From Ulva prolifera (Eukaryota > Chlorophyta > Ulvophyceae > Ulvales > Ulvaceae): a DNA stretch of 64,000 bases. The translations under genes were made by a program, and so were the position numbers. Location of the stretch: positions 2,983,713-3,047,712 of the forward strand of contig CM041201.1 of assembly GCA_023078555.1 (NCBI GenBank), written 5' to 3'. Positions 18,206 through 19,245 of this stretch are shown here, in pieces. Under the pieces are notes generated by a model. It was not told where the DNA came from and searched no databases. It was given only the letters and a program-made list of their open reading frames with translations. How positions within the stretch are numbered: the first letter of the stretch is position 1; every line of letters begins with the position of its first letter.

Positions 18206-19195
18206 ATGGTGCAGGTATTTGTGCGCTCTGACAAGACGTACTGCGTGGATGTCCCAGCGGCATCCACCGTCTCTGACTTTCTCTACGCCTTTGAGGACGT
18301 CGCAGGTGAGTCGCCTGAATGCTCGCTTGGTGTTGTGTTGTGGCTGCCCGTATGGCGCGCCACGTAGCAGCTGGCTTGTCCTGCGCTTCAATGATTCAGC
18401 AACGCATTGAACAATGGATCAAAGTAGCAGCCTGCGATGGTTACTTTCATGTTCTCACTTGCTGCGTGTCTCGTATTGACAGCGCTGATGCTGTGTCTGC
18501 AAGTATACCGCCAGGTTCATTGTGTGGGGCTTGGGGTCAAAGCTGTAGATCTGTCGGCTCGTTGTCACAGAAATTGCGTGTTCGCAATCGGTCTTGTTCG
18601 CTGCTGAGCCAAGTTCGGGATCGGTGCACTGCAGTGCAGTGCTGCGCCTGTCCAGTTCCTGTCCAGTTCACGCAGCCTCCGTTCTCAGCAGCTTCATATG
18701 CTCCTTCAGCAACCTGCGGGAAGCTTCTTCCATGACATCCGATGCTCCATATCGAGTGGTGTGCAGTAGTGATGTCATTCAAGGCCTCCTTTTGGCCTCC
18801 CTTGCGTCCACGTCAGTTCGCTGCATGACCTGATGTCACGTGCAGGTTTCCCAGCTGATGAGGCCCGCGTCGTCTTCGCTGGCAAGCAGCTGGACAGCGA
18901 TGCGCTCCTGACGGAGTGCGGCGTCCAGGAGGGCTGCAGCCTTGACGTGCTCGGTCGCCTGCTTGGTGCTGGTAAGAAGCGCAAGAAGAAGACCTACACC
19001 AAGCCCAAGAAGAACAAGCACAAGCACAAGAACGTCAAGCTGCGTGTTCTCAAGTATTACAGCGTCGATGACTCTGGCAAGGTGAACCGCACGAGGAAGG
19101 CCTGCCCACAGTGTGGCCCAGGCATTTTCATGGCGACCCACAACGACCGCGTGCACTGTGGCACCTGCGCCACCACCTTCATGTACCCCAAGTAA
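18206..19195 (+). CDS. RPS27A: Divergent ubiquitin-like domain fused to ribosomal protein eS31 (S27a)
   Basis: Two exons, 18206-18305 and 18846-19195, joined in phase 1; 149 residues. Residues 1-74 are a ubiquitin-fold domain: [34 protein letters not shown] and [19 protein letters not shown]. The FAGKQL core around Lys48 is kept, but most ubiquitin lysines, including the Lys63 equivalent, are gone and LRLRGG is replaced by GRLLGAG. It therefore cannot supply ordinary conjugable ubiquitin. The end resembles the FUBI domain fused to eS30 in animals (GRMLGG). The rest is a normal eS31 of the 40S subunit: [21 protein letters not shown] and a zinc finger with C-x2-C ... C-x2-C (CPQCGPG, HCGTC). 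Whether the UBL is cleaved off is unknown; a Gly remains at the junction. Confidence 0.95.
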
Positions 19196-19240
19196 GTTGA
19201 TCTAGGGCGTATGCGTGGGTGATGGGAAGCTCGATTGCAT

Positions 19241-19245
19241 GTAAC
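19241..19245 (+). terminator. Polyadenylation signal of UBL-eS31
   Basis: TGTAA occurs about 45 nt after the stop codon at 19193-19195, a typical distance for the green-algal signal. Confidence 0.6.

Follow-up and report, generated by a model that had tools for sequence, protein, structure and literature searches.

Canonical fusions of ubiquitin with the ribosomal protein eS31 read LRGG-AKKRKKK across the junction in plants and animals. Several lineages are described as departing from this form. In the passages of PMC10457151 that deal with UbS27a, its ubiquitin is highly divergent in Caenorhabditis, in 12 other species including P. falciparum (nine of the 12 being protists, from six phyla, with Catic and Ploegh 2005 as the source for the nine protists), and in all Plasmodium studied. 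The eS31 fusion of Giardia is reported to be uncleaved, which one review blames on an extra alanine between two glycines (PMC8122580), and Giardia eS31 is reported to remain in the ribosome together with its ubiquitin-like domain (PMC3684764); a second review describes the junction otherwise, as a change of Gly75 to alanine. Among algae, the relevant passages of PMC6332867 imply the usual Ub-S27a fusion for Chlamydomonas and place the S27a ubiquitin of Guillardia, a cryptophyte alga, on a branch apart from most other ubiquitins of its genome. We found no published report of a divergent Ub-eS31 in a green alga in the literature covered; a published case is possible, as the species list of Catic and Ploegh 2005 lies outside that literature. 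Divergent Ub-eS31 fusions are already on record from nematodes (Caenorhabditis), Giardia, Plasmodium and other protists, a precedent missed by the initial annotation of the locus described here, and the notable point of the present case is its Giardia-like junction.

The gene was found in a window of 64,000 nucleotides of Ulva prolifera DNA (Table 1). Its joined exons form an intact frame of 149 amino acids closed by TAA, in which a ubiquitin-like domain of 76 residues is fused to eS31; the domain had initially been given 74 residues, and the length adopted here takes KKRKKK as the start of eS31. Both halves score above the curated Pfam cut-offs, ubiquitin (PF00240) over residues 4-72 (E 5.3e-11) and Ribosomal_S27 (PF01599), which is eS31, over residues 101-144 (E 1.1e-22), and the eS31 domain is placed C-terminal to the ubiquitin-fold domain as in the canonical Ub-eS31 precursor (UBI3/RPS27A). 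Lysine is encoded by AAG in 18 of 18 cases, and GC3 reaches 0.71 for the ubiquitin-like domain and 0.86 for eS31, next to a GC of 0.54 for the intron; this codon use fits a real, expressed gene. A chance match or a pseudogene is ruled out by the Pfam scores, the intact frame and the codon bias, in agreement with the earlier description of 18206..19195 as an intact gene and not a dead copy. That description had also included a poly(A) signal, which stands only as a probable TGTAA at 19240, with no AATAAA up to 600 nt from the stop. Green algae usually use TGTAA as their poly(A) signal, and this motif also lies 3' of both other stops checked, those of polyubiquitin and RUB. From these features we infer that the gene is spliced and expressed. 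The Gly-Ala-Gly junction falls within exon 2 and is unaffected by the choice of first exon.

Table 1 Features of the ubiquitin-like-eS31 gene, in positions of the window
Feature	Position	Strand	Content or basis
Exon 1	18206..18305	+	ubiquitin-like residues 1-33 and first base of codon 34; GT donor at 18306
Intron, phase 1, GT-AG, 540 bp	18306..18845	+	splits the Gly codon that pairs with ubiquitin Gly35 in the alignment
Exon 2	18846..19195	+	remaining ubiquitin-like domain, junction, eS31, TAA stop
C-terminal half of ubiquitin-like domain, with FAGKQL and GRLLGAG	18846..18973	+	alignment
Junction codons GGT GCT GGT (Gly-Ala-Gly)	18965..18973	+	Ala codon 18968-18970 in the ubiquitin Gly76 column
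eS31 body, residues 77-149, C-x2-C / C-x2-C zinc ribbon	18974..19192	+	Pfam, PDB sequence matches
TGTAA, probable green-algal poly(A) signal	19240..19244	+	sequence

The two halves of the protein have evolved differently, the eS31 half being conserved at the sequence level in contrast to the strongly diverged ubiquitin half. In the PDB, the eS31 tail has 68 distinct sequence matches (102.5 bits for the best), among them, at low rank, chain 8fvy_f, which we take to be Giardia. The full chain of 149 residues has a mass of 16.5 kDa. The eS31 part has a pI of about 10.3 and contains the very basic stretch [19 protein letters not shown]. Its zinc ribbon (19103-19168 of the window) opens with CPQCGPG, much like the CPNCGPG of PDB 3j80_f, presumably a yeast; other PDB chains have CPSDECGAG or CPNAECGAG here, two residues longer. 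Two exons of a ThiF/E1-fold gene (17675-17583 and 17360-about 17000 of the window, minus strand; Pfam ThiF E 5e-49) stand head-to-head with the eS31 gene, and their motifs recall the SUMO-activating subunit UBA2/SAE2. The adjacency of an E1-like gene and a ubiquitin-like gene is probably a coincidence.

Compared with the canonical ubiquitin of the same genome, the domain is identical at 24 of 74 positions, far from the near-identity typical of the canonical Ub-eS31 precursor, which supports the earlier description in that the domain is far from ubiquitin. The alignment between the two scores 13.7 SD over 500 shuffles (z 13.7). Hydrophobic residues occupy all 14 of what we take to be the core positions of ubiquitin, against 14 of 57 positions elsewhere (Fisher P 1.7e-7). 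Most ubiquitin lysines are lost, as had been noted, including the Lys63 equivalent; more precisely, the equivalents of Lys6, 27, 29, 33 and 63 are gone and those of Lys11 and Lys48 remain (two of seven). The Ile44 patch is altered by deletion of Leu8 and replacement of His68 by Asp, all three residues of the Phe4 patch are retained, and so is the equivalent of Arg72. Taken together, the Pfam match, the conserved core and the surface changes suggest that the domain probably keeps the ubiquitin fold but has probably lost most of the main face by which ubiquitin binds its partners.

The junction reads [11 protein letters not shown], with alanine in the Gly76 column and with neither an inserted residue nor an indel, and the Gly75-Gly76 cleavage site of canonical Ub-eS31 is replaced by Gly-Ala-Gly. 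In PDB 3j80_f, a glycine precedes KKRKKK. The anatomy of the algal junction, the significance of which the initial annotation had missed, agrees with the extra-alanine wording for Giardia, that is, with the change blamed for non-cleavage there. As Gly76 at P1 is now alanine, the fusion should be a poor substrate for ordinary deubiquitinases, if it is cut by them at all. The deubiquitinases OTULIN, USP21 and CYLD are reported to fail on G76A linear diubiquitin (PMC5658516), an isopeptide bond with G76A is described as more resistant to deubiquitinases (PMC5298413), and diGly mutants of FUBI-eS30 (AA, GV) are described as non-cleavable and as disturbing 40S maturation (PMC8354635). Our best reading of the junction is that removal of the domain would be impaired or absent.

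The alternative that survives best is that the domain is cut off regardless, after Ala75 or Gly76, by a protease that is either tolerant or dedicated to the task, and is then discarded as a disposable leader in the manner of FUBI. Cleavage of such fusions is reported as the rule in yeast and humans, where it is required for good 40S function, USP36 acts promiscuously in vitro, on FUBI fusions as on ubiquitin fusions (PMC8354635), and a glycine still stands at position 76 of the algal protein. Set against this, all three deubiquitinases tried on G76A reject it (none of them algal) and the FUBI-eS30 diGly mutants stay uncut, and we regard removal by such a protease as unlikely. In another reading the freed domain is conjugated, as a new lineage-specific ubiquitin-like modifier with a glycine end. 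The Arg72 equivalent is present, a terminal glycine is possible, and modifiers with a single-glycine end exist, namely ATG8, ATG12 and UFM1; however, the diGly is absent, the Ile44 patch is altered as described above, and the E1-like gene next door does not amount to evidence for a dedicated E1, which together make a modifier highly improbable.

The position of the intron bears on the origin of the domain. It splits the Gly35-aligned codon after the first base, a site and phase shared with Ub-eL40 and with four of the six polyubiquitin repeats; the intron is absent from the other two repeats, from the ubiquitin of the Ub-RUB gene and from RUB. As this phase-1 intron is common to the alga's own ubiquitin genes, the domain most likely derives from ubiquitin in place, that is, from an ancestral Ub-eS31 gene. 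The initial annotation had noted that parts of the domain recall FUBI, the eS30 partner in animals. The C-terminal stretch CGV...L.V.GR.LG does resemble the last third of human FUBI, the first loop shares with human FUBI a length two residues below that of ubiquitin, and FUBI-eS30 occurs in unicellular organisms too according to one review, all of which would suit a domain swap in which a FUBI-type domain took the place of ubiquitin before eS31. Against such a swap, the domain scores no better with FUBI (z 13.0, human FUBI only) than with the alga's own ubiquitin, its intron site is that of the alga's own ubiquitin genes, and FUBI-eS30 is described as holozoan (PMC8354635). The eS30 of Ulva prolifera itself looks unfused: its first exon carries ATGG readable as an unfused MGKVHG start, and none of the listed ubiquitin (PF00240) matches is adjacent to the eS30 locus. 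On the scores, the intron site and the apparently unfused eS30 we reject a FUBI origin and consider a swap very improbable.

The 88.9 Mb assembly (44 contigs) was searched for further eS31 genes. PF01599 has a single match genome-wide, the fusion gene itself (three best candidates scored). A search with the complete protein, at an E limit of 10, returned 11 matches, of which two are its own exons and nine lie in other ubiquitin genes: six at the polyubiquitin locus on C4, one in Ub-RUB on C2 and one in Ub-eL40 on C9 (32-40% identity), and one in a ubiquitin-like frame on C7 (31% identity). Neither search found a second eS31 gene in the 88.9 Mb assembly, be it fused to canonical ubiquitin, a copy whose presence the initial annotation had regarded as counter-evidence, or otherwise. 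Canonical ubiquitin is encoded by the polyubiquitin gene (six repeats), by Ub-eL40 and by a ubiquitin ahead of a RUB (NEDD8) domain, and with these genes the cell should need none from the eS31 gene. An assembly effect is scarcely credible. It would require either a wrong base in the alanine codon (GCT differs from the Gly codon GGT at a single position, in the one assembly available) or a canonical Ub-eS31 gene in sequence missing from the assembly (the genome search scores best candidates only). Errors cannot account for the frame, the splice sites, the codon bias and the 49 other differences that separate the domain from ubiquitin, and the 88.9 Mb in 44 contigs include eL40, eS30 and polyubiquitin. 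A pattern search for close relatives in collections that hold no eukaryotes as such confirmed none of 10 matches on viral contigs and none of 49 on prokaryote contigs.

Other ubiquitin-like loci of the genome show peculiarities of their own. At C2:4146000-4148800, the frame of canonical ubiquitin stays open past ...RLRGG and continues with NKVTVYG..., and another frame, reading ...LRAFAKLRGG, stands immediately ahead of RUB/NEDD8; this locus may possibly encode a three-part precursor of ubiquitin, a degenerate ubiquitin-like domain and RUB. Three uninterrupted, diverged ubiquitin-like frames occur within about 11 kb on C7 (336600-340000 and 347000-349000), one of them ending RLRGC and not RLRGG, and are perhaps a local expansion. 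The same genome holds PsaD and 38 LHC matches. One LHC open frame, compared with PDB sequences, matches two multi-domain LHCI chains at the top and then, with near-equal scores, many Lhcb chains, including siphonaxanthin-type ones (Bry-Lhcb); by itself this comparison supports placement in the green lineage and nothing narrower.

The gene, its single copy in the assembly, its divergence, the intron site shared with other ubiquitin genes and the junction are established, and the reading of them that we favour, and consider fairly probable, is that the domain is a former ubiquitin kept as an in-cis chaperone of eS31 after drift in place, with cleavage poor or absent. The ubiquitin half of the single Ub-eS31 gene would have drifted where it stood, no longer homogenised with the polyubiquitin and Ub-eL40 genes; relieved of gene conversion and of ubiquitin supply, which the polyubiquitin, Ub-eL40 and Ub-RUB genes would meet, it would have come under selection that preserved the fold and not the signalling surface. 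The domain may fold ahead of the very basic eS31 chain and, as a chaperone in cis, keep it soluble until assembly. Alanine at P1 would allow deubiquitinases little or no cutting, and with cutting poor, part or all of the eS31 probably enters the 40S subunit with the domain still attached. Such a chaperone role of the ubiquitin half has been proposed in yeast and Giardia. When yeast makes eS31 that lacks ubiquitin, the protein is reported to aggregate, with the authors' caution that this may partly stem from the ribosome defect itself (PMC6721733), and SUMO is reported to replace ubiquitin partly on eL40 (PMC6721733, PMC8122580). Among the three fates offered by the initial annotation, that of a chaperone is best supported, residence on the ribosome is plausible and a new modifier is the least likely.

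How far the domain persists on mature ribosomes is less certain; we consider such persistence possible, if somewhat doubtful. Translation is reported to be still possible with uncleaved Ubi3 in yeast ribosomes (PMC6721733). Non-cleaved Ubi3 is nevertheless described as assembling poorly in yeast, with variants that are lethal when they are the sole source of eS31, and given this lethality a single gene whose product stays uncleaved would be expected to carry a cost, barring adaptation of the ribosome. Two further points against persistence are that the C. elegans counterpart, diverged as well, has kept Gly-Gly, and that a single base separates the alanine codon from a glycine codon. As to published structures, one cryo-EM study of Giardia lists eS31 among the proteins without clear density, the relevant passage of a second leaves protein eS31 undiscussed and so lends no support to a visible domain, the relevant passages of papers on Babesia and Plasmodium ribosomes and of a treatment of the ribosomal beak mention no attached domain, and a Plasmodium ribosome model is described as omitting eS31. 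A broader proposition, about as doubtful, is that the eS31 of every cytosolic 40S subunit in this alga bears a ubiquitin-fold appendage that is never cleaved off, owing to the same Ala-in-GlyGly change as in Giardia but acquired independently. Retention of the domain on the ribosome, if true, would mean that a change which harms yeast was accommodated on more than one occasion; if the fold is kept and the surface and cleavage site are lost, the chaperone role is separable from ubiquitin supply. Ulva prolifera would thereby offer a photosynthetic system for asking why ubiquitin became fused to eS31.

Judged by its sequence, the algal fusion shares the features of divergent UbS27a, namely a diverged ubiquitin half, a conserved eS31 half and, most likely, descent in place. 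FUBI (FAU), the eS30 partner in Holozoa, is similar in its few lysines, GR-x-LG ending and ribosomal passenger, and probably in its ubiquitin fold, but the passenger of FUBI is eS30 and FUBI ends in Gly-Gly, whereas here the passenger is eS31 and the junction Gly-Ala-Gly. Plasmodium UbS27a shows a similar degree of divergence, the P. falciparum domain being identical to its own polyubiquitin at 24 of 76 positions against 24 of 74 in the alga, and codon 35 is interrupted by an intron in both genes; unlike the algal gene, Plasmodium UbS27a is described with a second intron after codon 63 (PMC10457151). The UBL-1-eS31 protein of Caenorhabditis (PDB 9bh5_Af) likewise combines a diverged ubiquitin half with eS31 in one polypeptide, but UBL-1 keeps Gly-Gly (LLGG-AKKRKKK) where the algal fusion has Gly-Ala-Gly, and in the alignment UBL-1 lacks four residues at about ubiquitin 53-56 whereas the algal domain lacks two in the first loop. 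The ubiquitin-like-S27a of Giardia lamblia (Catic et al. 2007, via PMC8122580, PMC11354881, PMC3684764) also carries a divergent ubiquitin-fold domain on eS31, has an alanine at the Gly-Gly junction, which is known here by description, and leaves canonical ubiquitin to come from elsewhere. Giardia differs in being a diplomonad, and non-cleavage and residence in the ribosome are reported there, whereas in Ulva prolifera both are predicted from the gene.
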